From contig MKWG01000043.1 in NCBI GenBank assembly GCA_001899685.1, positions 453,942 through 517,941 on the forward strand: a DNA stretch of 64,000 nt. The letters are read 5' to 3'. Origin of the DNA: Sphingobacteriales bacterium 44-15 (GTDB taxonomy: Bacteria > Bacteroidota > Bacteroidia > Chitinophagales > Chitinophagaceae). Every line of letters starts with the position of its first letter. Positions within the stretch are counted from its first letter, which is position 1. Made by a program: the position numbers and the translations under genes. The notes below the pieces were generated by a model that was given only the letters and a program-made list of their open reading frames with translations, was not told the DNA's origin and made no database searches. This document shows positions 4,752-63,990 of this stretch, piece by piece.

Positions 4752-4786
4752 GCTTCACGTCTCACGTTTCACGTTTCACGTTTGAC
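4752..4786 (-). repeat. heptad tract, five exact units
   Basis: Read on the minus strand this is five 7-base units (GTCAAAC, GTGAAAC twice, GTGAGAC, GTGAAGC) in perfect phase. It starts one base after the TAA stop (4788-4790) of the MFS gene. Confidence 0.85.
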
Positions 4787-4787
4787 A

Positions 4788-5942
4788 TTATTGCCTGATC
4801 CTTCCCGACATGATCGTAGTACCCAGCCCCAGCAGGGCGATCAATGCAAAAGATACCCGCAGGTTGCTCAGCTCTGAAATAAACCCGATGATGGGAGGAC
4901 CAATAAGAAATCCCAGGAAGCCGATAGAAGAAACCGATGCCAGCGCCACACCCGGCAGCATTTTCTTCGACCTGCCGGCAAGGCTATACGCCATTGGCAC
5001 CACCGATGAAGTGCCGATGCCTACAATGAGAAAGCCAAGCGTAGCCGTGGATACATAAGGAAATAAGATGGCGAACATCATACCCGTAATAATAAAAAGC
5101 CCGCTCATTCTCAGTATACGGTGCACACCAAACCGGGTTACCAGATAGTCGGCGGTAAAACGCCCTGCTGTCATAGTAAACATAAAAGCCACATACCCAA
5201 GCCGTGTCATATCTTTTGGCGCCTGCACTATTTTTTCAAAATAAATACCGCTCCAGTCAAACATAGTGCCTTCGCAGATCATACAGGCAAAAGCTATAAT
5301 GCCGAGCGTAACAATATACCTGTCGGGCTTTACAAACACTTTCTTTTTTTCTTTCCGGCCGGAATGAGCGTCCCGAGGCAACATAAACTTTCTTGCAAAC
5401 AGCATCAGCAGGAAAGCTATGGCATAAATAATGCAGAAATGGGTGAACGGCGGTATATGTTTGGCTACCATGTAAGTGCTGACCACTCCGCCGGCAAACC
5501 CTGCCATGCTCCACACGCCATGGAAAGATGCCATGATGCTACGCCTGTAAAGCCGCTCCACACCTACGCCCTGGGTATTGAGCGATATATTGGAAAGATT
5601 ACCACAAATACCAAAGAACAGCAATGCCAGTCCCAGTTGCCACGCTGTGGTAACGCTGCCAAGCAGCAAAAGCACTGCGGGATACAGGCAGGCGGCGATA
5701 GACAATATCCTGCGGCTGCCGAACCGGCTCACCAAGAAACCTGAAAGCGCCATAGCCGCCAACTGCCCCAGGGGCAGCGCGAAAAGTATGGACCCCAGCG
5801 CTCCGTCGCTGAGATGCAGGACGTCCTTAATATCGGGAATACGGCTTGCCCAGGTGGCAAAGCTTAGCCCCTGTATAAAGTAAAAAGTACTTACTCCTAT
5901 GCGGTAATAGCGTTGTGTAGGAAAGGAAAGCGTAAGATTCAT
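4788..5942 (-). CDS. MFS transporter (YbjJ-like)
   Basis: The 384-residue protein has about twelve hydrophobic helices, a conserved N-terminal pattern (FATWASRIPDIK) and a motif-A-like loop (SRFGSRRIL) between helices 2 and 3. This matches the group of major-facilitator permeases that includes E. coli YbjJ, whose substrates are poorly known. It is probably a monocistronic inner-membrane transporter, divergent from pntB. The 3' end touches a heptad tract, which may serve as its 3' untranslated region. A small palindrome lies 17 bases before the start codon. Confidence 0.8.
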   Translation of the reverse strand: MNLTLSFPTQRYYRIGVSTFYFIQGLSFATWASRIPDIKDVLHLSDGALGSILFALPLGQLAAMALSGFLVSRFGSRRILSIAACLYPAVLLLLGSVTTAWQLGLALLFFGICGNLSNISLNTQGVGVERLYRRSIMASFHGVWSMAGFAGGVVSTYMVAKHIPPFTHFCIIYAIAFLLMLFARKFMLPRDAHSGRKEKKKVFVKPDRYIVTLGIIAFACMICEGTMFDWSGIYFEKIVQAPKDMTRLGYVAFMFTMTAGRFTADYLVTRFGVHRILRMSGLFIITGMMFAILFPYVSTATLGFLIVGIGTSSVVPMAYSLAGRSKKMLPGVALASVSSIGFLGFLIGPPIIGFISELSNLRVSFALIALLGLGTTIMSGRIRQ

Positions 5943-5958
5943 CTCGTTTGCTGTTTGT

Positions 5959-5975
5959 CATTACCAATAGTAATG
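5959..5975. promoter_or_regulatory. palindrome upstream of the MFS gene, possible operator
   Basis: CATTAC (5959-5964) and GTAATG (5970-5975) form a perfect inverted repeat with a 5-base spacer, close to the MFS start codon in the divergent MFS/pntB gap. The size fits a repressor site. No regulator gene is adjacent. Confidence 0.3.
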
Positions 5976-6080
5976 GCAGCAATCATGATTTTTATAAATG
6001 CAAAGATAAAATATTATTAGTGACCGCTAAAATTTGAAATTCGCCGTATTTATTGGAATTTTAAGCTACACTTACATATC

Positions 6081-7511
6081 ATGCAGGAAAGTACGCTCAC
6101 CGTTTGTTATATTATTGCTTCTGTTACGTTTATTCTCGGGCTTAAAATGTTGTCGCATCCTGCCACTGCGCGCCGGGGCAACCTGATAGCGGCAGGAGGC
6201 ATGTCGCTGGCAGTCCTTGCAACTATTTTTTTGTACCATGATGAAAACGGGAATGCGTTGCACAACTACGGCTGGATATTCGGGGGAATAGCTATCGGGG
6301 GAATAGTAGGAGTGTTTGTTGCTAAAAAGGTGAAGATGACCGCCATGCCGGAAATGGTAAGCCTCTTCAACGGTATGGGAGGCGCCTGCGCTGCGTTGAT
6401 CAGTATAGTGGAATACAATCATCTTGTACACCGTGCAGCAGATAGCGTGATCGCAACAGGGGAACTGTTGATCATATTATCGGGGCTTATTATCGGAACC
6501 ATATCTTTCACCGGCAGCATGATAGCCTGGGCAAAGCTGAATGGGCGTATAAAAGATTTTGCGTTTAAAGGTCAGCATGTTCTTAACCTGCTGTTGTTGC
6601 TGATCATAGCCTGTACGGCAGCCTGGCTGGTATACAGTTCCCGGGAAGGAGAAGCTGGTACTTCAGGTCACCCTTTAATGATCTTTTATTTTATCCTGTT
6701 GCTGTCTGTCACTTACGGTGTGTTCTTCGTCCTTCCCATCGGTGGCGCAGATATGCCGGTGGTGATCTCGCTGCTCAATTCCTTTACAGGCGTTGCCGCT
6801 GCCTGCGGCGGCTTCCTGTACGATAATAAGGCAATGCTTACCGGTGGCATCCTGGTAGGCGCGGCGGGCACACTGCTCACTATACTTATGTGCAAGGCCA
6901 TGAACCGTTCCCTGCTGAATGTATTGATAGGATCATTTGGCGGAAATGCGCAAAGCGGTACAGCCGGCAAACAACAGGGCGCTTATAAAGAGATATCTCT
7001 CAGCGATGCGGCGGTAGTGATGAATTACGCCAATAAGGTGCTTATTGTTCCCGGCTACGGACTGGCGGTAGCACAGGCGCAGCATGCCTGTCATGAACTG
7101 GAAAAGCTGCTGACGGAAAGAGGGGTCGACGTAAAATATGCCATTCACCCGGTAGCCGGCCGCATGCCCGGGCACATGAATGTGCTGCTGGCAGAAGCAG
7201 ATGTAAGCTACGACCAACTGCTGGAAATGGAGCAGGCAAACGAAGAGTTCCCCAGCACCGACGTAGTGCTGGTGCTGGGCGCTAATGATGTGGTAAATCC
7301 TGCTGCCAAAACCGATCCTTCTTCACCCATATATGGCATGCCGGTACTGAATGTGGAGCTTGCCAAAACCGTTATTGTCAACAAACGCAGTATGAAGCCG
7401 GGATACGCCGGTATAGAGAATGAGTTGTTTTTTCAACCTAAAACATCCATGCTTTTCGGTGATGCCAAAAAGGTGCTGCAGGAGCTGATCGCCGAGATAA
7501 AATCGTTATAA
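6081..7511 (+). CDS. pntB: NAD(P) transhydrogenase subunit beta
   Basis: The 476-residue protein is the beta subunit of proton-translocating transhydrogenase, which moves hydride between NADH and NADP+ using the proton gradient. The N-terminal half (about 1-280) has the membrane helices; the C-terminal half (about 310-476) is the NADP-binding domain III with the typical stretches VPGYGLAVAQAQ, HPVAGRMPGHMNVLLAEA and LGANDVVNPAA. Length is normal. The alpha subunit genes usually sit directly upstream in the same operon. Here the upstream gene is a divergent permease and no pntA is seen anywhere in the window. Confidence 0.95.
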   Translation: MQESTLTVCYIIASVTFILGLKMLSHPATARRGNLIAAGGMSLAVLATIFLYHDENGNALHNYGWIFGGIAIGGIVGVFVAKKVKMTAMPEMVSLFNGMGGACAALISIVEYNHLVHRAADSVIATGELLIILSGLIIGTISFTGSMIAWAKLNGRIKDFAFKGQHVLNLLLLLIIACTAAWLVYSSREGEAGTSGHPLMIFYFILLLSVTYGVFFVLPIGGADMPVVISLLNSFTGVAAACGGFLYDNKAMLTGGILVGAAGTLLTILMCKAMNRSLLNVLIGSFGGNAQSGTAGKQQGAYKEISLSDAAVVMNYANKVLIVPGYGLAVAQAQHACHELEKLLTERGVDVKYAIHPVAGRMPGHMNVLLAEADVSYDQLLEMEQANEEFPSTDVVLVLGANDVVNPAAKTDPSSPIYGMPVLNVELAKTVIVNKRSMKPGYAGIENELFFQPKTSMLFGDAKKVLQELIAEIKSL

Positions 7512-9001: not shown

Positions 9002-9011
9002 ATGATATCTG

Positions 9012-14896: not shown

Positions 14897-17032
14897 ATGC
14901 CTGCAATTTTCAACCCGCAATTTCCACTGAGGAAATTAAGTACTTTCTTCCTGATCGGTTTATCGCTATCCATTGGCTGGGGCATCCGGGGCAACTTCGG
15001 GCATGAATACGGAGCCGCCTTTGCCGGGAGCCTTGCCGCCATAGCAGTAGCTGTTTTGTCGGGACGGGCAGACTGGAGAAATAAAGTGCATTATTTCGCC
15101 CTCTTCGGTGCCATAGGCTGGGGCTTTGGCGCATCCATGTCTTACATGCAGGTCATTGCCTATACGCAAAGTGGCCATGCCCTGTCGCAATGGTATGGTT
15201 TTGTTTGCCTCTTTATCATTGGTTTTTTATGGGCAGCTATCGGCGGTATCGGCACGGCATTGCCTGCTGCAATGGACAGGGAAAGGATAGTAAAATTATT
15301 TGTACCGCTGCTCTTTGTGCTGGGCGCAAGGATAGTGCTCGGTATCATTGAAGATCCGGTGGCCCGCTGGATGGAAGCAGGCATCCATTTTGACCAGACA
15401 GCATCGAGACATAAAAATCCCTTGTACTGGTTTGACGCATACTACCTGCCTGCATTTTCAGCGCTGGTCGGTATCGGATTGTATGATCTCTGGCAACGCC
15501 GCGGGGAAAAAAACCTCAGGCTGCTTCCTTTATTTTTAATTATAGGATCACTGGCCGGTTTTCTTATTCAATTGTTGATGAAGAAAGCAGGCATTGAGGA
15601 AAGCTTTGCTGCCTCGCTTACTTACCTGCAGGGCGATCCTTCTTATATCAATCCTGATACCGGCTTACCGGCATACGAAGCAACAAATCTCCTGAACAAT
15701 TGGCCGCAATGGTTTGGTGATTATCCGCAGCATGTAGGCTGGGTAGCAGGCGGCATCCTGGGAGCAACGGTTTACTTTTTCAGATACGGAAAGTTTAAGA
15801 ACGGGGCTTCATTAATTGTATATATGGCAACAGGATGGCTGATCGCCTTTCTTGCCTTCCCTGTGTTGGGTAGTAAATTGTTTACTTCGTACGGGGGTAT
15901 CCGTATGACGCCGCCACGCAGTGATGACTGGGCAGGCATACTGGGATTGTTTATCGGCGCAATGATCTGGCTTTGGAAAAACAACCTGCGTGCCGTGGCA
16001 ATGGCTGCGGTTGTATGCGGTACTATCGGAGGGCTGGGCTTTTCAGGCGTGCAGTGGATAAAAACGATGTTGATGTCTTTCGGGAACCCCGATATACTTA
16101 CGAACAAAGGCATGCTGCCGGGGTCTGCTCAATTTATTGCGATTACCACAAGATGGGCCGAATGGCAGGCGCAGAACTGGCATAGCTTCCTGGAGCAGAC
16201 CTATGGATTTGTAAATGGTATTGCGATTGCGGTGGCAATGGCTTTGCTGGCTTCACGGATAAAGAATGAAAATGTAAACAGCAATGAAAATAAAATTGTT
16301 TTATCGGGAAGGTGGACAAGGGCGCTGGCTACTCTTTCCATATTATTCGGACTGACTTATTTTAATATTGTCAAAAATGTAGAGGAATGGTCAAACCAGC
16401 TTGATCCCGCTGTATGGAAAGAAAAAATAATGCAGCCGGACGGCACTGAAACAACCATACCGGCACAATGGGATCTTCCCTATTTAGGCAGGTTGCCCGG
16501 GTTGGATTTTTTACATCTTTCTCCCGAAGGCTGGTTTACATTGACATGGATATTACTTGTCATTGCCATGGTATTCATAGTACGCAAACACTTTCGCACA
16601 CCTGTTGCGCTCATACCTTCCGGTGATACGGGAAAAGGGCAACTGATCTTCCTGCTATTGCTGTGGATAATGACGATCGCTAATTTTGAAAGAGCATTGG
16701 TCGGCTGGCATCCTGCCCGCATGCTGACCGAATGGGTCATCTTTGTCAACGCCATTCTCGCTACGGCGCTTATCCTTATTTTACCTTCGGAAAATGTATC
16801 ACCTGTACCGGTTGTGGAAGAAAACTACAAGCCACTTTTAAGAAAGCGTTTGGGAATAATGGTAGCCTCTATGCTTATAGCAGGCACATTATTTACTTTT
16901 ACCAACCGATGGATATATCGTTATCCCAAATACAACCAACTGGATCTTAAAAGAAAAAATATACATACCCGTTTTGGTCCTGAAGCTGACTGGCGGGCGA
17001 AACCTAATTTAAAAAATGCGGAGCATAAGTAG
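14897..17032 (+). CDS. large polytopic membrane protein of unknown function
   Basis: The 711-residue protein has some fifteen hydrophobic segments spread over its length and no recognised catalytic domain. The N-terminus is glycine-rich (IGWGIRGNFGHEYGAAFAG, about 26-44). The C-terminus has a membrane segment followed by a charged tail. It could be a transporter, a polymerase-like membrane enzyme or part of a carbohydrate pathway; nothing here decides. It is a single gene, and its 3' end faces the AAA-ATPase gene across a long heptad hairpin. Confidence 0.75.
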   Translation: MPAIFNPQFPLRKLSTFFLIGLSLSIGWGIRGNFGHEYGAAFAGSLAAIAVAVLSGRADWRNKVHYFALFGAIGWGFGASMSYMQVIAYTQSGHALSQWYGFVCLFIIGFLWAAIGGIGTALPAAMDRERIVKLFVPLLFVLGARIVLGIIEDPVARWMEAGIHFDQTASRHKNPLYWFDAYYLPAFSALVGIGLYDLWQRRGEKNLRLLPLFLIIGSLAGFLIQLLMKKAGIEESFAASLTYLQGDPSYINPDTGLPAYEATNLLNNWPQWFGDYPQHVGWVAGGILGATVYFFRYGKFKNGASLIVYMATGWLIAFLAFPVLGSKLFTSYGGIRMTPPRSDDWAGILGLFIGAMIWLWKNNLRAVAMAAVVCGTIGGLGFSGVQWIKTMLMSFGNPDILTNKGMLPGSAQFIAITTRWAEWQAQNWHSFLEQTYGFVNGIAIAVAMALLASRIKNENVNSNENKIVLSGRWTRALATLSILFGLTYFNIVKNVEEWSNQLDPAVWKEKIMQPDGTETTIPAQWDLPYLGRLPGLDFLHLSPEGWFTLTWILLVIAMVFIVRKHFRTPVALIPSGDTGKGQLIFLLLLWIMTIANFERALVGWHPARMLTEWVIFVNAILATALILILPSENVSPVPVVEENYKPLLRKRLGIMVASMLIAGTLFTFTNRWIYRYPKYNQLDLKRKNIHTRFGPEADWRAKPNLKNAEHK

Positions 17033-17062: not shown

Positions 17063-17184
17063 GGCGAATGGTGAATAGGCAATGGTGAATGAGTGAGAGC
17101 ATCTCACGTTTGACATTTCACGTCTCACAGAAAAAGTGAGATGTGAAATGTGAGATATTCACTATTACCTATTCACCATTCGCC
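17063..17184. repeat. heptad tract folding into a long hairpin between convergent genes
   Basis: The left arm (17063-17128) and right arm (17136-17184) are inverted copies around the loop AGAAAAA (17129-17135). Outer parts are GTGAATG/GTGAATA-type units, inner parts are GTGAAAC-type. The arms match apart from a few substitutions, a 10-base insert at 17091-17100 and one extra heptad (GTTTGAC, 17108-17114) on the left. The right edge lies two bases from the stop codon of the ATPase gene. It probably works as a two-way terminator. Confidence 0.85.
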
Positions 17185-18816: not shown

Positions 18817-18844
18817 CCCTCCCTTACCACTTATCACTTACCCC
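18817..18844 (-). repeat. short heptad tract after the VWA gene
   Basis: On the minus strand the units GGGGTAA, GTGATAA, GTGGTAA and GGGAGGG follow the TAG stop (18846-18848) after a single base. It lies between the VWA and ATPase genes, which face the same way. Confidence 0.75.
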
Positions 18845-18845
18845 T

Positions 18846-32542: not shown

Positions 32543-32640
32543 TTGTGGAATCGTTAACCGTTTTAAACAAGATCGTAAATGTAAGGTCATTTCCGTTAAT
32601 ATATGTAACAGCAGGAAAATTTTCACCGTAGGTTTGCAAT

Positions 32641-44031: not shown

Positions 44032-44047
44032 AGTGAACGGACCGTGA

Positions 44048-47687: not shown

Positions 47688-47747
47688 ATATCAGAGTATT
47701 TAGAATAAATTTTCAATGTTTTGGTATGAACGCTTATTTTTATTGAT

Positions 47748-49901: not shown

Positions 49902-49910
49902 GGGCTGTAA

Positions 49911-49973
49911 AGTTACAGGTTTTAGGGATGAGGGGATAAGGCGTAAGGGATAAGGAGCAAGGTGTAAGGAACA
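49911..49973 (+). repeat. heptad tract upstream of the GT-B gene
   Basis: Two hinge-type units (AGTTACA, GGTTTTA) are followed from 49925 by seven units in exact phase (GGGATGA, GGGGATA, AGGCGTA, AGGGATA, AGGAGCA, AGGTGTA, AGGAACA). It begins 9 bases before the start codon of the leftward GT-B gene. Confidence 0.8.
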
Positions 49974-50009
49974 AATCTCATCGGCTAAAATAGTTACAGG
50001 TTGCGGGTT

Positions 50010-50065
50010 TCACGTTTGTCGTCTCACGTTTGTCGTCTCACGTTTATCGTCTCACATTTATCGTC
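50010..50065 (-). repeat. heptad tract with 14-base superunits
   Basis: Four copies of a 14-base unit (TCACGTTTGTCGTC twice, then two one- or two-base variants) run without gaps. Each is two heptads. It lies 96 bases downstream of the sialidase-like gene and has the GTGA strand in that gene's sense direction. Confidence 0.9.
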
Positions 50066-50161
50066 TATCCTTTCCTGTTTCCCGAAACTCACAACACTCT
50101 TCGAAAAGCGAGGGCTGTGTATAGATCTCATTCCCCTGGGGAAGGCCGGGATGGGCTGTAC

Positions 50162-52030: not shown

Positions 52031-52073
52031 GGCTTTACTTTTGTCTGAGAGAGGTTAAATATAGTGTATTCAG

Positions 52074-52174
52074 GTGAGGGAATGGTGAAAAGTGAATGGT
52101 GAATGATAGACGTTGAACGTGAGATGATAAACGTGAGACGTGAAACCACCTGAAACTTGTAACCTGAAATCTTT
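52074..52174 (+). repeat. heptad tract ending at a start codon
   Basis: GTGAATG-type units at 52085-52104 pass through a single 6-base unit (GTGAAT) into GTGAGAC/GTGAAAC-type units (52105-52146) and then into hinge-type units CACCTGA, AACTTGT, AACCTGA and AATCTTT. The 7-base phase is unbroken from 52105 to the ATG at 52175. Confidence 0.85.
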
Positions 52175-52501
52175 ATGGATATAGAACGGATCCGAACATA
52201 TTGTCTTTCTAAAGCAGGCGCAGAAGAAACTATGCCTTTTGGCCCGGATGTGGTAGTCTTTAAGACGTCCGGTAAAATTTTTTTATTGCTTTCTTTGGAT
52301 ACAGAACAAACGCAGTTCAATGTAAAATGCGATCCTGAGAAAGCGGAAGAACTGCGGGAGGCTTATTCCTGTGTGCTTCCGGGATATCACATGAATAAAA
52401 AGCACTGGAATACCATTATTGTTGACGGAACGGTACCTGCACGTACATTACAATCTTGGATAGATCACTCGTATGATCTTGTGAGCAGGAAGAAAAAATA
52501 A
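52175..52501 (+). CDS. MmcQ/YjbR family protein
   Basis: The 108-residue protein has the short MmcQ/YjbR double-wing fold: MDIERIRTYCLSK, GAEETMPFGPDVVVFKTSGKIFLLLSL, PEKAEELREAY, and GYHMNKKHWNTIIVDGTVP. It may bind DNA, but the role is unknown. Its start codon follows the heptad tract directly, so no ribosome-binding site is visible. It is convergent with the CobW-type gene with only 3 bases between stop codons. Confidence 0.85.
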   Translation: MDIERIRTYCLSKAGAEETMPFGPDVVVFKTSGKIFLLLSLDTEQTQFNVKCDPEKAEELREAYSCVLPGYHMNKKHWNTIIVDGTVPARTLQSWIDHSYDLVSRKKK

Positions 52502-52504
52502 GGA

Positions 52505-53596
52505 TCAGGCAATTATCCTGTACGTAGGCCTGGGATAGCCGGGCTGAAATGCGGTGGTGGTATATTCAGTGATCTTAGATGCTGTTGTATTTTCTGTTTC
52601 AACAATAGCCTCCGTAATAATATCCTGCAATACCTGTGGTGCGGTTTGTACCCGCGCATTTACGAGCAATACAGCCTTTGCAGATTCTTCCATAGTATGT
52701 TGTTCCATGCTGTTAGTATCTCCAAAAGGGCTGAAGCTGATCTTCGTTTGAGAGCGCCCGTTATCCAGCAGGAATTTGAGGTGCCCGATAGGATAGTTCC
52801 CGGCTTTTATTTTGTTGTATACAGTATCAGCCAGGAGCAATGCCGCTTTAACTGCATTTTTATCTTCTGATACTATGCCCACTTCCTCATCCAGCCAGGC
52901 CAGTTCAGCTTCGCCGGCGCCGTACTTATCATAGTCAATATTGAGCGCGGGACGGAGCGTTGCATTGTGGAAATTTTCACAGGCATCCAGCCAGTGTTGT
53001 ATCCCTTTTTCCGAAAGTGAATTTTGATAGAGGATAATTTTATCAGGGAATGCATCAGATATTACTGCTTTTGCATGATCCAGTTCCGGGACGGATAAGA
53101 GATCTATCTTATTAGCTACGATGATATCAGCTTCGTCCAGTTGCTTTTGGTAGATATAGCTGACATTCTCATGAAAAACAGGTTGCTCATTTTTCAAAAA
53201 TGCTACCAGCAGCCTGATGTCAGCAAATACAGACAGCACGATATTATAGCGGTCCGGCTGCAGGGTAAGCAGGGGATTGATTATTGTAGCTGCAAGGTCG
53301 GCACATGACCCTACAGATTCTGCGAAAATGATATCAGGCTGAATGTCTTCATGCAATCTCTGTATACCTCCAGACATAGCATTGAAATTACAGCAAAAGC
53401 AACTGCCCGCTACTTCTTCATTAGGAAATCCCTTGCCACGGATGAACCCGGTATCCACCTGTTGTTTTCCCTGGTCGTTGGTAAGAATACCCGCTTTGCG
53501 CCCCGATGCTTTTAAGAGCTTAGCTGCACTATAGATGGCTGTTGTTTTTCCGCTTGCGAGAAATCCCCCCACTAATAATAATTTCATACGGGTCAT
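52505..53596 (-). CDS. CobW/COG0523-type GTPase, putative metallochaperone
   Basis: The 363-residue protein has the G3E GTPase layout: Walker A GGFLASGKTT (about 10-19), a CxCC metal site (GSCFCC, Cys66-Cys68-Cys69), a switch region ESVGSCADL and the base-recognition motif NKIDL. COG0523 proteins insert or deliver metals such as zinc, cobalt or nickel in a GTP-dependent way. The usual motif is GCxCC; here the first position is Ser. A CobW C-terminal domain fills residues about 250-363. Start is ATG 53596 or 53587. No metal-uptake gene is adjacent, so the metal is unknown. Confidence 0.85.
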   Translation of the reverse strand: MTRMKLLLVGGFLASGKTTAIYSAAKLLKASGRKAGILTNDQGKQQVDTGFIRGKGFPNEEVAGSCFCCNFNAMSGGIQRLHEDIQPDIIFAESVGSCADLAATIINPLLTLQPDRYNIVLSVFADIRLLVAFLKNEQPVFHENVSYIYQKQLDEADIIVANKIDLLSVPELDHAKAVISDAFPDKIILYQNSLSEKGIQHWLDACENFHNATLRPALNIDYDKYGAGEAELAWLDEEVGIVSEDKNAVKAALLLADTVYNKIKAGNYPIGHLKFLLDNGRSQTKISFSPFGDTNSMEQHTMEESAKAVLLVNARVQTAPQVLQDIITEAIVETENTTASKITEYTTTAFQPGYPRPTYRIIA

Positions 53597-53610
53597 AATT
53601 TTACAGTGGT

Positions 53611-56322
53611 TTAAATAATTGTGATGTAGAGTGTCTCATTTTCTGGGATCACCTGTTTTTGCTTAAAGCTGATCACACATTGCGACCCGGAATGAGAGAA
53701 GCTGGCCGCGATAGCCCGCCCTTCGATCAACACTTCAACGCTGCCTGCTTTGTGGCTGCTGGCAAGAGATGCAGTAAATTGTTGTATGCTTAGCGATCCG
53801 TATACCATTTTCAGTTGGGCCCTGAGAGAATTTTCGGTTTGCTGCTGGCTATACGTACCCCATCCTTCTGCGGCAGTAAATGGGGATTTAAAAGCTTCAG
53901 GATTTAATTTAGGAGAAAATCCAATTTGCCCTTTCGGTCCATGGTAAGTAAAACCGCAGGCACTGATAAAAGTGCCATAACTCGCCATTGCACGCCCATA
54001 ATGGTCACTGCATTCTATTTCATTAAAAGGATTGCGTTTATAAGCATGATAGCGATCGTGTATTGATCTTGTAAGCACCAGTGATTCTTCGATCATCCCT
54101 TCTGCCATCATGTGGGCGGCAACCTGGTGCTCAAAGCCGCTCATACATTCACTAAAATAAGCAACCTGCCAGGCCCTGGCATTGCCATACGGGTTTTCTT
54201 CATTCCCGGGATTGGTGTTCATCACCATACCTCCATCGCCTGCCAGTGCATAAAACCGTCCGCCGGTATGTTTTTTTATGTAAGGACCCACATCCGGCAT
54301 ATAATTATATTTCCAGAGCGCTTTCAAAGCGCTCATGGTTTTCTCTTTACTTAGAATGCGGCCAAGATTTACCTGCCACGCCCAGCTCTGACCGTATACC
54401 TGGTCAATATGACAGGTGTTGAAAGAACCGATTTCCTTTTTGCCTATTTCCGGGTCGGCCCTGTGAATAAAATACTCCCCGTTGAAGAGTTGTTCTTCCA
54501 TGTTGCGGCTCCCCTTGACCACATAGTCAGCACACCGTTTGGCAAAAGCTTTATCCTCCATTTCTTCGGCCATGGCCTGTCCTGCACGCACTCCTGCAAT
54601 GCATAACCCAACGATCCAGGCGATCTCGCCGTGCCATTGTGCGTCAAGTGTATTCTCCATAGGCGTATCTTCCATGCCGTCATTATTCTTATCAAGATTC
54701 ATAATGAAGATCACCGCTTTTTTGATCTTCGGCCAGTTCTTTTTCAGAAAAATATCATCCCTGCTCATCTGGTGTTCGCGATAGATACGTAATATAGTGC
54801 CCGCCTGCCCGTCTACGGAAGGGCCTGTGGCCTCTCCTCTTATGCGGATCATTCCATCTTTCTCATTATATCCTATGCCAAGATCAACCCTTTCGCGCGT
54901 ATCTCTTTCCAGCTCGGGAAAAATGCGTGATACGGCGTGCGCATACTGGTATACGTGAGTACAGTTGCCGTGACAGCATCCTATCCCTTCCCAGGCATAA
55001 TAGCGCCCCGACCTGAAACGGTGGGTTGTAGTAGTAGCGAGCGTTGAAATATTTACAAAAGTCCTTTCCAGGAACCACCAGGGAAGACTGCTGTCGTACC
55101 ATGTATCTTTCCAGAGGAAAGTTTTGCTTTTCAGCTTATCATAGTGCTTTGCTATATATGCAGCTACATCTGCGGAGCTTTTAAACTGTGTGGTATAGAA
55201 ATGTGTATCTGCACCTTTCACGGTCATTCCTTTCAGGTTTCCCGGTTTGCTGTCTTCCGGGGCGCAGTCAAAGCATATATTAGGGGTGAACCACGAAAGG
55301 ATGAAGTCTGCGTTGATCTCCATTTGCGATTGCATGTGGTAAGACTGTATGATACCGCCAACGGGGTCGTTGCCGGTATTGCCAAGCATGCCTTTGATCC
55401 TGTAAGCATTCTCTTCTTTCCCGGAAATGACATCTGCCATGCATGTGGCGTCGCCTGCCAGGGTGCCAAGGAACATATCTCCGAAGTCGGGCGCTTTTTG
55501 AAGCGTTTCTTTGCCGGTATGGCAGCGCAGGTGAATGCCCCGGATATGCTCTTCTTTTACTACTGCATTAACCCGTGAAAAATCTTTATCTGTCTTTTCG
55601 GAGTAGCATAACATTTTATTTTCAAGCCAGCCCATGATATCCACCTCAATGGCGTCGCCGGATATGTTTTTTACAGCTATGGACTGGATGGTAGCCGGGA
55701 GCCCGCTTTCAAGCGCATTGCCCGGTATAAACGGAGAAAAGGCCCGCAACGTGACCTCTACCGGAAACCCCGGATCACTGTAAGTGATGGTTGCTACAGG
55801 ATATGTAGCTTCAAAGCTTATCTCTGCCCAGTCTGTTTCCTTCAGCTTTTTAATGTAAGTGGCATCGTTGAGGGTTACGGCAATAGCAAAGCCCTGCTGC
55901 AGAGGTGTAATCTGTGTAGATGGATCAAGATAGAGCGTACCTTCAATATTGTCTATTTGTTTGATGTTAAAGCTCTTTAATGGTATGGGAAGCACTTTAG
56001 GTATAGCTCCCATCTGGTTTTGGTTGAAAATATCCCAGAGCCATAATCTTCCGTCGCCACCCACATATACACCTCCGGCGCAAATACCGCCTGCAGGCAT
56101 CCCGATATATTGCAACTCGTTCCTGCTTTTTTTGTAAGTGGTGGCACTCCCCCGTTCATATAGCTGCTTCAGCCAGAGGTGATCTAATTTTTTATTGAAA
56201 GGAAAATAAGTACCGGTAAATTCCTCCTGTGTAAAAGGCCCTGCTACGAGCGGAAGCCCGGGTGAAAAAAATCCTGCGGCAGCAAGCATGCTTCCTGATC
56301 TTAAAAAATTGCGCCTTTTCAT
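53611..56322 (-). CDS. exported GH116-type beta-glucosidase/glucosylceramidase-like glycosidase
   Basis: The 903-residue protein has a twin-arginine-like leader (MKRRNFLRSGSMLAAAG). Residues about 65-100 (LQYIGMPAGGICAGGVYVGG) match the N-terminal domain, and the C-terminal (alpha/alpha)6 domain contains HIDQVYGQSWAW, in which the Asp corresponds to the acid/base of GH116 (the DQxxGQ motif of human GBA2). Length is normal for the family. It may act on beta-glucosides or other glycans. It sits 14 bases upstream of the CobW-type gene on the same strand. Confidence 0.87.
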   Translation of the reverse strand: MKRRNFLRSGSMLAAAGFFSPGLPLVAGPFTQEEFTGTYFPFNKKLDHLWLKQLYERGSATTYKKSRNELQYIGMPAGGICAGGVYVGGDGRLWLWDIFNQNQMGAIPKVLPIPLKSFNIKQIDNIEGTLYLDPSTQITPLQQGFAIAVTLNDATYIKKLKETDWAEISFEATYPVATITYSDPGFPVEVTLRAFSPFIPGNALESGLPATIQSIAVKNISGDAIEVDIMGWLENKMLCYSEKTDKDFSRVNAVVKEEHIRGIHLRCHTGKETLQKAPDFGDMFLGTLAGDATCMADVISGKEENAYRIKGMLGNTGNDPVGGIIQSYHMQSQMEINADFILSWFTPNICFDCAPEDSKPGNLKGMTVKGADTHFYTTQFKSSADVAAYIAKHYDKLKSKTFLWKDTWYDSSLPWWFLERTFVNISTLATTTTHRFRSGRYYAWEGIGCCHGNCTHVYQYAHAVSRIFPELERDTRERVDLGIGYNEKDGMIRIRGEATGPSVDGQAGTILRIYREHQMSRDDIFLKKNWPKIKKAVIFIMNLDKNNDGMEDTPMENTLDAQWHGEIAWIVGLCIAGVRAGQAMAEEMEDKAFAKRCADYVVKGSRNMEEQLFNGEYFIHRADPEIGKKEIGSFNTCHIDQVYGQSWAWQVNLGRILSKEKTMSALKALWKYNYMPDVGPYIKKHTGGRFYALAGDGGMVMNTNPGNEENPYGNARAWQVAYFSECMSGFEHQVAAHMMAEGMIEESLVLTRSIHDRYHAYKRNPFNEIECSDHYGRAMASYGTFISACGFTYHGPKGQIGFSPKLNPEAFKSPFTAAEGWGTYSQQQTENSLRAQLKMVYGSLSIQQFTASLASSHKAGSVEVLIEGRAIAASFSHSGSQCVISFKQKQVIPENETLYITII

Positions 56323-56495
56323 GAGCTATGGGGTTGGGTGAACATTGCAGCTAAGTTAAAAAACCTCGTCTTCTCAGTTGAGAAATATTTAAAACAGTTT
56401 ATAGATTACTGCTGGCATGACACGGGATTTAAATGCCTTAGAGGTTCTCATATTCCTCTTGAATTTGGGAGGCGCAATAGTAAATAATAAAAACA

Positions 56496-56520
56496 GAGGC
56501 TGCCTTTAAAAGACAGCCTC
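56496..56520. terminator. terminator-like hairpin downstream of katG
   Basis: GAGGCTG (56496-56502) and CAGCCTC (56514-56520) form a perfect 7-base-pair stem around an A/T-rich loop. With flanking A and T runs it looks like a rho-independent terminator for leftward katG transcription, about 280 bases after the stop. Confidence 0.6.
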
Positions 56521-56684
56521 GCCTTTCACTACTATTGGATTAAACGGGCCTGAAACAATAATGACAATGGAAACGTAGGGTTACTTTCTCAATACAATGA
56601 GAATATCCTGAGCTTCATATCATTATGATCATTACAAAGTTTATAAATTTTTGTGACACTTACCACAAAGAATGCCTTAACGCC

Positions 56685-56720
56685 AAGGGTTTCCAACTTT
56701 TCAAAAGCAGGAAACCCTTG
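56685..56720. repeat. REP-like palindrome with 11-base-pair stem
   Basis: CAAGGGTTTCC (56685-56695) and GGAAACCCTTG (56710-56720) are perfect inverted repeats with a 14-base loop, itself partly self-complementary (CTTT with AAAG). It lies in the katG 3' region. Confidence 0.75.
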
Positions 56721-56730
56721 TATAAACCTT

Positions 56731-56797
56731 GAGGCGTGAAACGTGAAAGGAGAGGTCTTTTCATGTTTGTCGTTTCACATTTGTCGTTCCTTACCCC
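56731..56797 (-). repeat. heptad tract after katG
   Basis: On the minus strand GGGGTAA follows the katG TGA stop (56798-56800) directly, then units such as GACAAAT, GTGAAAC, GACAAAC and ATGAAAA. Opposite-strand partners (GTGAAAC 56736-56742 and GTGAAAG 56743-56749 on the plus strand) give it a hairpin form. Confidence 0.8.
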
Positions 56798-59095
<2,298 letters not shown>

Positions 59096-59211
59096 TTAAG
59101 TATTGTTTATAAGTCACGCTGCTAAAAGTGTTTATCGAAAGAAATATTACCCAGCTTATTTAACCGCCGAACATTTCCTGACAAACTTATGACATTTGAA
59201 GTATAAATAGA

Positions 59212-59247
59212 ATTGATTAATTCTATAAGTATATAGAATTGATCTAT
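59212..59247. promoter_or_regulatory. OxyR-like site upstream of katG
   Basis: Two ATAG-N7-CTAT-type elements lie side by side: ATTG-N7-CTAT (59212-59226) and ATAG-N7-CTAT (59233-59247), with a 6-base spacer. The OxyR consensus is two ATAG-N7-CTAT elements with a 7-base spacer, so this differs by one base and one spacer position. An 8-base perfect palindrome (ATAGAATT/AATTCTAT, 59207-59226) overlaps it, so PerR-type binding is an alternative. Confidence 0.45.
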
Positions 59248-59290
59248 TATCCAGCTATGGTGTTTATCTGAAACAAATTATAGAGATAAG

Positions 59291-59890
59291 TTAATGTGAA
59301 AGAACGGAAGGTTTAGAAGATGCATATTTTAAATTATATGCCTTAATTAATTCAGGTACCATTTTATACTCAAAATTATCTGCATCTATAATATTGGTAA
59401 ACTCCTCATCAGTGATATATTTTTTTAATATTTCTTTATACTTGTTCTTCTTCAGTTTCAGCCTGGTATTTCCATATTTAATGCAAAAATTGCTTGCTCG
59501 TCCAATTCCTGCGATTCCCCAACCACTTATATTATAATAATACACTTCTATTGTGCCATTCACTATTCTTGGAATCATAATCAGCACATTTCCGGTGGGT
59601 CCGGGTAAAGTACCGAATGTTTCCATGTGCAAGCTGTCGGAGTCAAAAGCTTCATATTCACGGGACTGAAACTTTTTATCATGCCTTTTAGCATTAATAT
59701 CAGCTTTATACCACACAGTTTGCCCGTTAGAATTGATTTCTGTATCAAATTCAAAATAACCTACAAGGGTATCTCCCGGATTATACATTTTTCCGAAAAT
59801 ATATTTTTGCTTTTTATTTTGAGCATAACTGTGGGTATTGAAAAAGAGCAGCAGAACCAGAAAGTACAAGCAACAAATAGTGTGTCTCAT
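59291..59890 (-). CDS. hypothetical secreted protein
   Basis: The 199-residue protein has a signal peptide (MRHTICCLYFLVLLLFFNTHSYA). The mature part has basic and aromatic residues (KYIFGKMYNPGDTLVGYFEFDTE) and ends without a recognised domain. It is a single gene; its start faces the acyl-CoA dehydrogenase 3' region, and katG lies downstream on the same strand. Function is unknown. Confidence 0.65.
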   Translation of the reverse strand: MRHTICCLYFLVLLLFFNTHSYAQNKKQKYIFGKMYNPGDTLVGYFEFDTEINSNGQTVWYKADINAKRHDKKFQSREYEAFDSDSLHMETFGTLPGPTGNVLIMIPRIVNGTIEVYYYNISGWGIAGIGRASNFCIKYGNTRLKLKKNKYKEILKKYITDEEFTNIIDADNFEYKMVPELIKAYNLKYASSKPSVLSH

Positions 59891-59950
59891 AATATCGTAT
59901 TGCCGGGTAGATTTAGTGGTAAGTTAAGACTATTGTACCGTAAACAATTG

Positions 59951-60010
59951 TAAGAGGTGAGATTTTCACGCCCGCCTGTCGGCAGACAGGTTTGACTTCT
60001 GACGTTTCAC
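59951..60010 (-). repeat. heptad tract interrupted by a small palindrome
   Basis: On the minus strand GTGAAAC, GTCAGAA and GTCAAAC are followed by a palindrome (CCTGTC 59975-59980 and GACAGG 59985-59990, 4-base loop), then GTGAAAA and TCTCACC-type units. It lies 49 bases after the acyl-CoA dehydrogenase stop. Confidence 0.7.
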
Positions 60011-60058
60011 GATTAACATAGCATTAGTAATTAATACATTAAAAGTGATAATAGCGCT

Positions 60059-61420
60059 TTATACAAAGGCACTAAATCCCGTAATAGCCCTGCCCACAAT
60101 CAGCGAATTAATTTCCTTTGTTCCTTCATAAGAGTATATCGCTTCCGCGTCTGCCACAAACCGGGCAACATTATGATCAAGCAGTATACCATTGCCGCCC
60201 ATCACTTCTCTTGCCCTGCTCACAATATCACGCGTGCGCAAGGAACAAAATACTTTCGCCAGCGAAGCATGTTCATCTTTCAGCAAGCCTTCATCCTGCA
60301 ATTCAGACAGGCGGTATACCATTGACTGCATAGCCGTAAGATTTGATAACATTTCCACCAAATGATTTTGAATAAGCTGAAAAGAAGCAATAGGTTTGCC
60401 AAACTGTTTACGTTTGCGTGTGTAATCCAATGCGTTTTCATACGCGCCCCTGGCACAACCAACCGCCATCCAGGCTACACCGGCCCGGGTCATCTGTAAT
60501 ATCTTAGCCGTATCCTTAAATGAATTAGCGCCGGGCAGCCTGTCGTTTTCCTGCACAACGCAACCGGTAAGCGTTATCAGCCCGTTCTGCACAATGCGCA
60601 GCGCCATTTTGCCTTTTATCTTTTCAACCGACATGCCGGGCGTATCTTTCCTCACAATAAACCCCTTTACTTCTCCATCATCCACATCTCTTGCCCAAAT
60701 AATAATCAGGTCGGCAAAAGTGGCATTGCCAATCCATTTCTTTTGCCCGTTCAGCACCCAGCCGTTTTCCGTTCGTTTAACCGTAGTAGTTAGTCCTCCG
60801 GCAGCGCCGGAGCCTACTTCAGGTTCTGTCAATCCGAATGCGCCAATCTTTTTCAGTTCATGCATGGCAGGCAACCATTCCTGCTTTTGTTCCTCTGAGC
60901 CGCACATATAAATAGAGCCCATTGCCAGTCCGCTCTGCACACCAAAAAAAGTAGCGATAGACGCATCTATCCTTCCCATTTCCATTGCAATAATTCCCTC
61001 CATTAAAAAAGATTTACCAGGACAACCATACCCCCGGTAGGTTACACCGCATAAACCCAGCTCAGCAAATTTGGGTATCACTTCAAACGGAAAATCATCG
61101 TGCAGCCAGTAATTATTTACAATAGGTTTGATCTCTCTTTCCATAAATTCACGCACCCGCAGTTGCAAAGCTTTATCTTCATCACCCAGGCGAAGGTGCA
61201 GCTCATAAAAATCGCCATTTATTTCAGGCAATTCTTTTTTCTTTCTGCTACCGCCATTCATCATATTCATCAGCATTTTCAATTGCTTATCATCCAGTTT
61301 CGAAAAACCTTCCATCACCTTTTGCAGGTCGACTTTTTGTGAAAGTTTTGCTAACTGATCAAAATCTATACTCTTCAAAAGATTGAATGTGCTTTTGATC
61401 TTTGAAAAAGTTCCTGACAT
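60059..61420 (-). CDS. acyl-CoA dehydrogenase (glutaryl-CoA dehydrogenase-like)
   Basis: The 453-residue FAD enzyme should introduce a double bond into (or decarboxylate) an acyl-CoA. The family motifs GAFGLTEPEVGSGAAG, WIGNATFADLIIIWARD and IASFQLIQNHLVEML are present, and the catalytic base is probably Glu432 in YSYEGTKEIN, the position seen in glutaryl-CoA dehydrogenase. An extra N-terminal part of about 60 residues is helical. No pathway partners are adjacent, so the substrate is not certain. Confidence 0.9.
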   Translation of the reverse strand: MSGTFSKIKSTFNLLKSIDFDQLAKLSQKVDLQKVMEGFSKLDDKQLKMLMNMMNGGSRKKKELPEINGDFYELHLRLGDEDKALQLRVREFMEREIKPIVNNYWLHDDFPFEVIPKFAELGLCGVTYRGYGCPGKSFLMEGIIAMEMGRIDASIATFFGVQSGLAMGSIYMCGSEEQKQEWLPAMHELKKIGAFGLTEPEVGSGAAGGLTTTVKRTENGWVLNGQKKWIGNATFADLIIIWARDVDDGEVKGFIVRKDTPGMSVEKIKGKMALRIVQNGLITLTGCVVQENDRLPGANSFKDTAKILQMTRAGVAWMAVGCARGAYENALDYTRKRKQFGKPIASFQLIQNHLVEMLSNLTAMQSMVYRLSELQDEGLLKDEHASLAKVFCSLRTRDIVSRAREVMGGNGILLDHNVARFVADAEAIYSYEGTKEINSLIVGRAITGFSAFV

Positions 61421-61944
61421 AGTATATCGTTTTCAGTTATCTATTAAAGATAAGACCTGAATTGTTTACACTTTTATTTTTTGTTCAAGCCGATTGTAAG
61501 CAAGATGAGTTTAAATGCAAAATAAGCAAGGGTGAATGAATTTGCACCAGGAAGCTTTCGTACCTGTAAGTACTACTGCTTATTTTTTTAAAAATTACCC
61601 TTACGAATAACCGCAGTTTTGAGAATACTTATTAGATTAATATGCAAGTCCTGAATTATTCTTACATAATGACTGTACTTTTTGGTATATTTACTGGTAT
61701 GTACCCCCGATAGTGTCAGGTTAACCGTAATGCACTGTATCATTTTGTGATAAGGGGTAAGGGATAAGGAGTAAGGGAAGATGTTTCACTATTGACCATT
61801 TACCATTCACTTCTAACCTCAAGGACATGTCACAATTAACTCAGCACTATTTCAGGGATACGTAATCATTATGTTCTGCCATTCCGTATTTTATGAAAGC
61901 AAAAAAGATCCGTGCCGGTATTTTTTTGAATAAACCATTGCCGT
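61421..61944. other. 524-base divergent gap
   Basis: The gap lies between the start codons of the acyl-CoA dehydrogenase (leftward) and the sensor kinase (rightward) and must hold both promoters. The only structure I can support is the heptad tract at 61747-61818. A 33-residue frame from ATG 61894 overlaps the kinase start and is not accepted as a gene. Confidence 0.5.
61747..61818. repeat. symmetrical heptad tract in a divergent gap
   Basis: Five plus-strand units (GTGATAA, GGGGTAA, GGGATAA, GGAGTAA, GGGAAGA; 35 bases), 2 bases, then five opposite-strand units (TTTCACT, ATTGACC, ATTTACC, ATTCACT, TCTAACC; 35 bases), all in phase. The arms are of different flavours and pair only weakly. Neither adjacent gene has its stop codon here. 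Confidence 0.85.
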
Positions 61945-63729
61945 ATGGGATTGATGCCAATCCATTCACAAAAGAAAAGCTGGATATCCTTTAAAAACCT
62001 GTCGCTTCAGAAAAGGCTGCCTTTATTTGTATGCCTGTTGCTGATAGGGGTAGTTTCGTGCTTCAGCATAATATCTTACCTGAGCATTAAAAATCTTGAA
62101 TTGCGCGCCGGCAGGCAACGGTTATTAAGCCTTACCCTTCAGGTGGCCAACATGTTTTCGGAGTCTATACACGAAGATTATAAAAATACCGCACAGATAG
62201 CCGCTGCCGCTCCCATATCGGACTTTATACATTATCGTGATGAAGCTGCCAAAAAGAAAGCTCTGGATTTACTACGGCAGATAGGCTCGGGAGGCACCTC
62301 AATGTTTGCAGAAATACTTGACACGGGGCATCATCCGCTGCTCAGCGCCGGCAACCCATTGTACCTGCCGACGCCCCGGTATCATCACAGTCGTGAAGAT
62401 AGTACTATAGCCGGGCGTGTTTATAGTTTTCATGATTCTGTTTTTTACAGTATTACTATACCGGTACTGGAATCGGGTATACGAACGGGGTATGTTCGCC
62501 GCTACCGGTTTGTTAAGATCACGTCTAAAATGATTGCCCAGTTCTCTAAGCTTGCGGGGCAGGGAGCAAAATTGTATGTTGGTAACAGGAACGACAGTTT
62601 CTATACGGATCTGTTCAAACCTGTGCACTACCGGTTGCCTGTAAACGAGAGCCTTGTTGGTAAGAGTTATAATTATACTGATGACGGGGGTACTGATTTG
62701 ATAGGCGCTTTCAGGTTTGTGCCTGATACACCATGGCTGGTTTCCCTGGAATTTCCTTATAATGTTGTTGTGCAGGGCTCTTCCCGGTTTCTTTTCTGGC
62801 TGGTACTGCTGGGCACTTTTTTGGTAGCAGTGGGGCTGGTAGTAGCCTGGATCATCAGTAAAAATCTTATCCGGCCGCTCAATCAGTTAACTAATGCGGT
62901 AGATACATTATCGTCGGGTGAGTTTGCAGAAGTGCCGGTCAGCCGCCGGGAGGATGAGGTAGGCAGGCTGGCCCGGTCCTTTAATGAAATGTCTTTGAAC
63001 CTGCGGGATGCAAGAAGTAAGATGGAGGAAAAGATCAGCGAAGCTGAGTATTTGAATATCCAATTGAGAAAGCTTACCGCGCATCTGCAGAATATACGGG
63101 AAGAAGAGCGCAAGCTGATAGCAAGGGAAATGCATGATGAACTGGGGCAATTGCTCACAGGCTTCAAAATGGATATCCAGCTTCTGAAAAATCAATTGCC
63201 CGCATATGACAGAGGACGGGTGGCAGAGCATATCCAGTCAATGACAGGTCTTATTGATGACGCCATCAGGTTTGTAAGGCGGCTGTCGTCACAGTTGAGA
63301 GAAGGCCCGCTGGAAGATCTTGGACTGATTGCAGCTATTCAATGGTATATTAAAGAGTTTACCAGGCGATATAATATTCCTGTAACATTTAACTGCTCAC
63401 ATGCTGAACTGAAATTGCTTCCTGCAGTGAAAACGGGATTGTTCAGGATCTGCCAGGAGTCGCTGACCAATATAGCAAGGCATTCACATGCCACACAGGT
63501 GCAGATTGATCTTGAAGTAAATAATGATGAACTGTCGCTGACAGTAACCGATAATGGGAAAGGCTTCACAACAGGCGCTCACGGTAATACCGATTCACTG
63601 GGACTGCTGGGAATGAATGAACGTGCGCTTATGATAGGAGCTACGCTTTCTCTCCGGTCTGCTGTCGGGAAAGGTACCACGATCAAAGTGGCTTTTCCCA
63701 TCGGCAAAGAACAGGAAGCGTCTTCATGA
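61945..63729 (+). CDS. sensor histidine kinase (NarL/LiaS-type, HisKA_3)
   Basis: The 594-residue membrane protein has an N-terminal helix (about 24-46), a periplasmic sensing region (about 47-275), a second helix (about 280-305), a HAMP domain (about 305-357) and the HisKA_3/HATPase_c core. The phosphorylated histidine is His397 in AREMHDELGQ, and the ATP-binding N-box is in QESLTNIARHSH (Asn509), followed by TVTDNGKGF. It should control a LuxR-type response regulator. No regulator gene is in the window; it may lie just beyond the right edge or elsewhere. Confidence 0.92.
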   Translation: MGLMPIHSQKKSWISFKNLSLQKRLPLFVCLLLIGVVSCFSIISYLSIKNLELRAGRQRLLSLTLQVANMFSESIHEDYKNTAQIAAAAPISDFIHYRDEAAKKKALDLLRQIGSGGTSMFAEILDTGHHPLLSAGNPLYLPTPRYHHSREDSTIAGRVYSFHDSVFYSITIPVLESGIRTGYVRRYRFVKITSKMIAQFSKLAGQGAKLYVGNRNDSFYTDLFKPVHYRLPVNESLVGKSYNYTDDGGTDLIGAFRFVPDTPWLVSLEFPYNVVVQGSSRFLFWLVLLGTFLVAVGLVVAWIISKNLIRPLNQLTNAVDTLSSGEFAEVPVSRREDEVGRLARSFNEMSLNLRDARSKMEEKISEAEYLNIQLRKLTAHLQNIREEERKLIAREMHDELGQLLTGFKMDIQLLKNQLPAYDRGRVAEHIQSMTGLIDDAIRFVRRLSSQLREGPLEDLGLIAAIQWYIKEFTRRYNIPVTFNCSHAELKLLPAVKTGLFRICQESLTNIARHSHATQVQIDLEVNNDELSLTVTDNGKGFTTGAHGNTDSLGLLGMNERALMIGATLSLRSAVGKGTTIKVAFPIGKEQEASS

Positions 63730-63732
63730 AAA

Positions 63733-63794
63733 GTGAGACGTCAAACGTGAAACACACAAGTGATAAGTGGTAAGTGATAAGAAGTAAGTATGCA
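63733..63794 (+). repeat. heptad tract after the sensor kinase
   Basis: Three bases after the kinase TGA stop, GTGAGAC, GTCAAAC and GTGAAAC are followed by a single 6-base unit (ACACAA) and then GTGATAA, GTGGTAA, GTGATAA, GAAGTAA and GTATGCA in exact phase. Confidence 0.85.
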
Positions 63795-63832
63795 AGCGAT
63801 GGGTGGGATATGAAAAGTGAAATGAACGCCAT

Positions 63833-63900
63833 ACATGCAGCATGCCTTGCGCCCATACTCCTTATCCCATATTCCTTACCCCCTTCACCCAGTATAATAG
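63833..63900 (-). repeat. opposite-strand heptad-like tract
   Basis: It holds CATGCCTTGC (63841-63850, shared with two other intergenic sites) and then CCTTATCCC, TTCCTTACC and CCTTCACCC, the opposite-strand form of the GGGATAA/GTGATAA units. With 63733-63794 it makes an inverted pair. Confidence 0.6.
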
Positions 63901-63960
63901 CTAACTTAAAAGTATTATTGCAATGAATGAGTATAAAAGAAGCAATTTTTTTCTCATATA

Positions 63961-63990
63961 TCTCTTTTCACATTTTACGTTTGACACCCT
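63961..63990 (-). repeat. partial heptad tract at the window edge
   Basis: TTTTCAC, ATTTTAC and GTTTGAC are opposite-strand units (GTCAAAC, GTAAAAT, GTGAAAA). The tract probably marks the 3' end of a leftward gene beyond the window. Confidence 0.5.

Follow-up and report, generated by a model that had tools for sequence, protein, structure and literature searches.

Short repeats between bacterial genes come in several kinds, and some of them count in sevens. The short tandemly repeated heptamers (STRR) of cyanobacteria are tandem and intergenic; repetitive extragenic palindromes (REP), bacterial interspersed mosaic elements (BIME), and miniature inverted-repeat transposable elements (MITE) are short dispersed palindromes, usually at the 3′ ends of genes. 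Our subject is a dispersed family of degenerate 7-base tracts in Sphingobacteriales bacterium 44-15 (Chitinophagaceae; 6.0 Mb in 46 contigs), first seen in a stretch of 64,000 nt of contig MKWG01000043.1, positions 453,942 to 517,941 (G000:C43:453942-517941), which at its full length we call the window.

The closest described system is that of Rehm et al. (2015; PMC4692102), who report heterogeneous heptads, (GGGANTN)n, in Xanthomonas and Nostoc (GGGAATC, GGGGA(C/T)T), which were studied for their ability to form quadruplexes and can form them. Two xanthomonads carry 186 and 183 GGGANTN repeats, 89% and 93% of them intergenic, at a mean of 28 nt from the 5′ neighboring open reading frame (ORF) and 160 nt from the downstream ORF; of the repeats downstream of an ORF, most lie within 50 bp of its stop, on the coding strand. 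Only 7–8% stand between divergent ORFs, 70 and 75 form convergent pairs, and neither the leading nor the lagging strand is preferred.

A second system is that of MacGregor (2015; PMC4679880), in which TAACTGA direct repeats occur in Beggiatoaceae, Cyanobacteria, and five Bacteroidetes. Among the longer simple repeats, heptads are in many bacteria the commonest class, with slippage as a proposed source (PMC4679880 and PMC4692102, both citing Mrazek 2007). The tracts described here are a many-worded form of the Xanthomonas/Nostoc type of heterogeneous heptameric intergenic repeat. How did they come to stand where they do? The answer that we favor, tentatively and with somewhat less than even confidence, is that they are repeats grown by slippage and tolerated after stop codons, mostly without function.

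Heptad tracts beside stop codons

A preliminary description of the window, made from its letters alone, had listed 14 loci as heptad tracts held in exact 7-base phase. At each locus, we took 120 nt starting 10 nt before the listed position (fewer at 63961, where the window ends) and compared its best lag-7 segment score with 1000 dinucleotide shuffles. All 14 exceed the shuffles, with scores of 8–22 against shuffle means of 3.4–4.2 (p 0.001–0.006 at thirteen loci, 0.017 at 63961), and at none does the best of lags 4–6 and 8–13 rise above 8; the lowest lag-7 scores in these slices belong to 18817 (10), 42964 (11), 56731 (9), 59951 (8), and 63961 (8). The coordinates do, then, mark heptad tracts, which are, as had been said, neither simple microsatellites nor explained by any gene. 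The exact phase holds within a block of one flavor and, judged by eye, is often broken where flavors meet. A CRISPR reading is implausible given the contiguous 7-nt units.

Beyond the window, we used a sample of 864 kb made up of the window itself, 20 stretches of the same genome taken at round coordinates with the list of matches in view but not matched to it (L001–L020; several contain a match), and 20 more picked around known matches, where tract density is thereby inflated (L191–L210). Over 528 gaps of at least 30 nt (114,840 nt), identity at lag 7 is 0.299 and at lag 14 is 0.295, against 0.266 in shuffles (standard deviations 0.0013 and 0.0011) and 0.248 at lag 7 in coding DNA; this intergenic excess, which the preliminary description had proposed to look for, marks a real feature. 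Segments with scores of 12 or more in the first 464 kb number 60, 43, and 12 at lags 7, 14, and 21, respectively, and 0–7 at each of the remaining lags from 4 to 20; in Tandem Repeats Finder, a period of 14 often outscores one of 7. The pattern GTGARACGTGARACG has 69 matches genome-wide; read backward, it has none. The sample holds 136 tracts, only 1 of them mostly coding (merged, they take up 8,490 of 864,000 nt), which bears out the picture of a dispersed, genome-wide, multi-flavored, and intergenic family.

Where they lie is far from even. Among gaps of at least 30 nt, a tract is present in 30 of 82 convergent, 79 of 342 codirectional, and 14 of 104 divergent ones (1.85, 1.18, and 0.45 tracts per kb of gap). 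For the 86 tracts in codirectional gaps, the median distance is 8.5 nt to the stop upstream and 77 nt to the start downstream; 45 are no more than 10 nt from that stop (2000 uniform placements: mean 15.0, maximum 26), and the excess persists if the final 60 nt ahead of the start are excluded, 27 of 57 tracts then being that close (null placements: mean 11.1, at most 19). The congeners have 12 codirectional tracts, of which 7 are within the same 10 nt (null placements: mean 2.9, at most 8), and a tract in 1 of their 49 divergent gaps; for three further genomes pooled (G065, G070, and G135), the corresponding figures are 15 of 36 (mean 5.5, at most 11) and 2 of 29.

The tracts also have a direction. 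Their words, drawn up by eye from the same tracts that were then counted for order and polarity, include N (GTGAATR), A (GTGARAC), C (CCTGWAA), T (the TAAG type, GTGRTAA), and S (AGCTRTS), lower case standing for the reverse complement. In 98 of 113 tract–stop pairs, the first recognized word lies on the purine-rich, GTGA-like strand and points away from the stop; one tract may serve two stops (101 tracts gave 122 pairs before the filter on words). These are 63 of 76 pairs in which the stop precedes the tract and 35 of 37 in which they overlap, an overlap that follows in part from calling genes, as we did, by our own ORF scoring. The 40 nt past a stop are 64% purine in 87 tract-bearing cases and 50% in 237 tract-free ones. 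A bias by replication strand, tried in the single-contig genome G065, was rejected: the fuller match list there mixes both strands.

Might the tracts be a backstop for translation, a TGA, TAA, or TAG every 7 bases giving a stop in all three frames after the gene? A stop in every frame is reached within 45 nt in 52% of 95 tract-bearing 3′ regions and in 23% of 174 tract-free ones, the words read away from the gene's own stop, and the share of consensus heptads lacking a stop on both strands is 11% in this genome's tracts, compared with 27% after letter shuffling. Yet as a unifying rule, stops fail in three other genomes of the family (22% stop-less heptads, 22% in shuffles), where the word GTACTTC is stop-free, and TGA is not a fixed part of GTGARAC: its positions 2–3 (TG in 229 of 352, TC in 48) and 7 are free, the only part of its makeup that is a result, positions 1, 4, 5, and 6 having been fixed by the search pattern. 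With some of the stop overlap owed to ORF calling as well, we hold a backstop to be very improbable.

Loci of the window, folds, and a mobile-looking element

The loci are given one to a line, with window coordinates, strand where one applies, and lag-7 scores where noted.

4755–4789 (−): GTGARAC block reaching over the stop of the gene 4788–5942 (−); score 22, p 0.001
17063–17184: nested palindrome between convergent genes, GTGAATR outer and GTGARAC inner, both inverted; fold z −12.3
18817–18845 (−): short GTGRTAA block (TTACCAC/TTATCAC on the plus strand) ending at the stop of 18846–19943 (−); weak, score 10, p 0.002
29094–29149 (−): block of the GGTATAA/GGTGTGA type ending at the stop of the gene 29150–32626 (−); score 15, p 0.001
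42970–43083: GTGA-type and GTGAATR words past the stop at 42955, reversed words ahead of the start at 43082
48892–48984: GTGRTAA, CAGGTTW, reversed GTGARAC, and reversed GTGAATR, covering both convergent stops; absent in 3 of 3 relatives
49912–50082: CAGGTT, TAAGGGA-type, CAGGTT, and reversed GTGARAC blocks in a codirectional gap; scores 15 and 15
52080–52146 (+): GTGAATR, GTGARAC, and CCTGAAA words, in that order, between divergent genes; missing from 5 of 5 relatives
56731–56790: short GTGAAAC words, then reversed words, upstream of 56798; score 9, p 0.005
59914–60026 (+): MITE-like element with TA ends, short GTGARAC arms, and a REP-like palindrome in the right arm
61751–61810: GTGRTAA/GGGATAA block followed by GTGAATR words in reverse, between divergent genes; score 15, p 0.002
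63727–63788 (+): GTGARAC block across the stop at 63729, then a GTGRTAA block; score 19, p 0.001
63961–63990 (−): short run of reversed GTGARAC words where the window ends; weak, score 8, p 0.017

The 711-aa protein encoded at 14897–17032 (+) has no Pfam match at E 0.001.

Facing words might fold after a stop and so end transcription or protect the mRNA, the tracts being transcript 3′ ends. In its favor, fold z-scores fall below −3 in 14 of the 38 tracts that reach 60 nt and in 21 of 120 tract-free 3′ regions (Fisher p 0.023), and hairpin-plus-U terminators in convergent gaps are found in 4 of the 27 that hold a tract and 14 of the 37 that do not (p 0.053). The other 24 of the 38 tracts, however, do not reach that z; in codirectional gaps, terminators are equally frequent with a tract (10 of 79) and without (29 of 195); and in 17 inverted tracts, selection for RNA pairing between the arms was rejected, differences that keep a G–U pair (24) being about as many as those that break pairing (22), with 59 further differences of the transversion type. 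A role as transcript ends is unlikely. An origin of the arms by inverted duplication was rejected too: an arm's own partner is its best match in 1 of 84 cases in the genome itself, 7 of 16 in G032, and 2 of 17 in G065, G070, and G135; the summed own-arm scores in the genome itself do exceed permutations (902 against 758, standard deviation 35), which reflects matching flavor.

One locus of the preliminary description, 59951, falls within a dispersed element at 59914–60026. Sixteen copies of it align, this one included, most with TA at both ends and with end forms like TAGTGTTAAGTTAAG and CATAGCACTA, and with GTGARAC arms of varying number. A REP-like palindrome stands in the right arm of 11, in the left arm of 2, and in neither in 3, as if inserted into the heptad arms. 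The genome has at least 49 matches to the element (40 of 300 candidates were scored, and some weak matches may be heptads alone), each of 11 congeners has 0–7, and the left-end pattern has 16 matches with at most 3 mismatches. Conserved ends plus a duplicated target in many copies, which define a MITE, are seen in part in this subset, with no clean empty site, and not in most tracts.

Some details of the element stand by themselves. The palindrome, CCTGCCTGTCGGCAGACAGG or a close form, sits at differing spots in the copies L182, L188, and L171–L180, and at G000:C46:224047-224297, three element matches lie in tandem over about 250 nt. In the window, the element adjoins a 199-aa ORF (59291–59890, −) without a Pfam match, the two being flanked by a peroxidase-domain gene (56798–59077) and an acyl-CoA dehydrogenase-domain gene (60059–61420).

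Are all of the tracts, then, remains of mobile REP- or MITE-type hairpins that transposed beside stops, with the heptads as their arms? The 16 aligned copies, the numbers in this genome against those in its congeners, the prevalence of facing inversions, 56 identical nucleotides common to two loci chosen by BLAST, and a placement at gene 3′ ends that is usual for such elements all speak for it. In the first sample, however, just 6 of 57 tracts have the element's end signature nearby, so that most tracts either are something else or no longer have its ends. Recent copying was rejected for unselected tracts, whose exact shared words are no more than an order-7 Markov model expects (a conservative null, trained on the same tracts), and we therefore take long memory to have been lost; nor are tract arms copies of one another, as the 1 of 84 above attests. 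Numbers of Y1_Tnp transposases do not track numbers of tracts in 30 genomes (family-level counts only), which set aside a RAYT link: G014, with 286 matches, has one weak RAYT-type match and G096, with 30, has 14. As a source of the whole family, mobile palindromes seem to us unlikely. Backstop, transcript-end, and mobile-palindrome readings alike account for some of the observations, and at least one test goes against each.

Proposed slippage, word order, and recurrence across phyla

On the reading that we favor, purine-rich 7-base words would grow, shrink, and decay, most likely through replication slippage in 7- or 14-base steps, and tracts would persist where they cost least—right after stops and in the purine-rich, stop-bearing orientation—and would not be kept in coding DNA or in the promoter gaps of divergent genes. 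One word, GTGARAC, would have been spread by a mobile palindrome (TA-ended, MITE-like, and itself hit by a REP-like palindrome), and effects on transcript ends or stray ribosomes would be by-products. The data establish placement, polarity, flavor order, the turnover from species to species, the lack of a quadruplex motif, and the dispersed element; we infer slippage as the engine and tolerance as the reason for the placement, with no dedicated function. No function of the tracts emerged from our sequence analyses of them. Slippage with tolerance would account for the period, the place, the polarity, the fast turnover, and the lost long memory between loci.

Turnover is indeed fast. In stretches of relatives chosen for orthology with window 44001–64000, the presence or absence of tracts at orthologous gaps, a comparison also proposed at the outset, came out as absence in 10 of 10, with lag-7 scores of 3–7; the gaps are 48915–48968 (3 relatives), 52031–52174 (5), and 59891–60058 (2, G002 and G007, from which both the ORF 59291–59890 and the element are missing). 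GTGAATRGTGAATRG is present in 56 of 146 genomes of the family and in 43 of 392 of the phylum, and GTGARACGTGARACG in 21 of the 146, our own included; G014, G065, and G070 are rich in GTGAATRGTGAATRG and have no GTGARACGTGARACG. Within a genus, match numbers swing from 286 (G014) to 4 (G113, which carries other words) and from 231 (G032) to 0 (G128). Vocabularies change wholesale between sister species.

Several observations weigh against slippage with tolerance. Slippage homogenizes neighbors, so heptads that alternate at their variable base count against it: neighboring GTGAATR heptads are the same in 20 cases and different in 49 (p 0.001) and GTGRTAA heptads in 23 and 45 (p 0.010). GTGARAC heptads show no such alternation (168 same, 175 different; n = 343), and at loci of other phyla, adjacent GTGAATR heptads are alike (327 same, 100 different). 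Indels in 7-nt steps between copies of the TA-ended element are in no clear excess, with 4, 10, and 9 cases at lengths 7, 14, and 21 beside 15 single-base indels, 13 of 20 nt, and 11 of 22 nt (the palindrome making up part of the 20- and 22-nt cases). In the 132 merged tracts, N precedes A 26:1, A precedes C 11:0, and C precedes t, the reversed GTGRTAA, 6:1. The preference for stops is weak in the tract-rich family genome G032, where 7 of 13 codirectional tracts are nearer the stop, and missing at the codirectional sites of the genome_contigs set (17 of 35). Alternation, flavor order, and a shared vocabulary are left unexplained by slippage, and neither that order nor a word favored across phyla would be expected from random seeds.

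The order of the words has a reading of its own. Taken with inverted GTGARAC pairs, which face each other in 25 of the merged tracts' cases and diverge in 3, the counts lead us to a view of the flavors that tends toward layers of a loosely palindromic structure rather than separate families. The order is not universal: by eye, the G032 tract L571 121–244 runs GTGARAC, then GTGAATR.

Other vocabularies and symmetries were seen along the way. GTGAATR and GTGRTAA mirror each other, a backward GTGAATR control matching the GTGRTAA flavor 72 times in the genome itself; G032 (L566, L572, and L576) has nested palindromes of GGATGTT and GGATGAC heptads, with layers matching on both sides; and G065 (L041–L045) has another rich vocabulary in 7-base phase, with AAAGCTT/AAAGCCT, GTACTTC, AACGTAC, and ACACCGT.

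Farther afield, GTGAATR three times over is found in at least 118 stretches of genome_contigs from many phyla, where about one match is the chance expectation by our own arithmetic with equal base frequencies. In IMG/VR, the triple word is in 90 stretches, compared with 14 for its mirror and 3 for a scramble, a disparity that adds to the case against slippage alone. GTGARAC is in 15 (another scramble, 4), AGCTRTS in 106, and GTTTRTR in at least 120, the last two patterns allowing eight times more sequences. Placement was followed in 80 of the at least 118 genome_contigs stretches and in IMG/VR, with sites at contig edges dropped (12 and 10) and with 20 of 85 and 12 of 86 sites, respectively, inside ORFs called by a plain length rule; the codirectional sites in IMG/VR show some preference, 38 of 53 being nearer the stop. 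Reading direction is biased in such data because the GTGA strand itself carries stops. Among the matches listed in open PMC, no paper treats the recurrence of GTGAATR across phyla, subscription journals being mostly outside that search.

Could something be reading or writing these words? A DNA- or RNA-reading protein with a 7-base register, or a writer directed by a template, either with a small vocabulary, would suit words that vary at set positions, their order and polarity, the excess of triple GTGAATR over mirror and scramble, its spread through many phyla, and the wholesale change of vocabulary between sister species. No candidate protein, template RNA, or reverse transcriptase turned up, however, PF01797 being the only one searched for, and few scrambles served as controls; as the explanation of the tracts, we consider such a process improbable. 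That a sequence-specific process at work across phyla builds or keeps 7-base-phased tracts beside stops from a small set of words, be it by a 7-base-register factor or by templated writing, strikes us as decidedly unlikely, and if it were true, flavors, order, and alternation would be information and not the debris of slippage.

Comparison with described repeats

It had been said at the outset that no described family matches. That is not so: the heterogeneous heptads of Rehm et al. (2015; PMC4692102) have the same architecture. Both are heterogeneous tandem 7-nt units with fixed and free positions, dispersed through a genome; both are intergenic, close to stops on the coding strand (weakly so in G032), and sparse between divergent genes; and both form convergent pairs (here, GTGARAC facing 25 vs. 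3). A quadruplex motif (four G3 runs, loops of 1–7) is present in 0 of our 132 merged tracts, of which 25 have at least two G3 runs on one strand. With the same placement, polarity, and convergent pairing achieved without the motif, quadruplex formation is not needed for the architecture. Its cause is then to be sought in slippage with tolerance, in a purine bias of the strand, or in some factor yet to be named; sister species with hundreds of matches on the one hand and few or none on the other make that cause testable, and the recurrence of GTGAATR in many phyla is a lead beyond this one genome.

The differences are as instructive. Our tracts, unlike those of the Rehm type, hold several different words apiece, in order; they lack the quadruplex motif, whereas the units there are G-rich; and they are kept in 0 of 10 orthologous gaps, whereas most repeats there lie between the same genes in two species (our relatives being possibly more distant than the two compared there, Xcc and Xac). 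One subset here lies within a mobile-looking element, whereas Rehm et al. report no general link of theirs to mobile elements.

With the TAACTGA repeats (PMC4679880), the tracts share a tandem 7-base unit, an intergenic position, a patchy presence over distant lineages, and stops in every frame in one orientation. There, one exact word stands mostly before starts; here, degenerate words stand past stops. Our tracts fall outside that family: their words differ, and their median distances are 77 nt to the start and 8.5 nt to the stop.

Like REP and MITE elements, short dispersed palindromes stand here at gene 3′ ends, and one subset has repeated ends bordered by TA; conserved ends are missing from most tracts, which are built of 7-base units and whose numbers bear no relation to those of RAYT genes. 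Anchoring at stop codons, strand polarity, flavor order, and the MITE-like locus go beyond the preliminary description, and next to the described repeats, what is new here is the use of multiple ordered words in one tract, the absence of a quadruplex motif, a MITE-like subset, and a word, GTGAATR, that is favored in many phyla.

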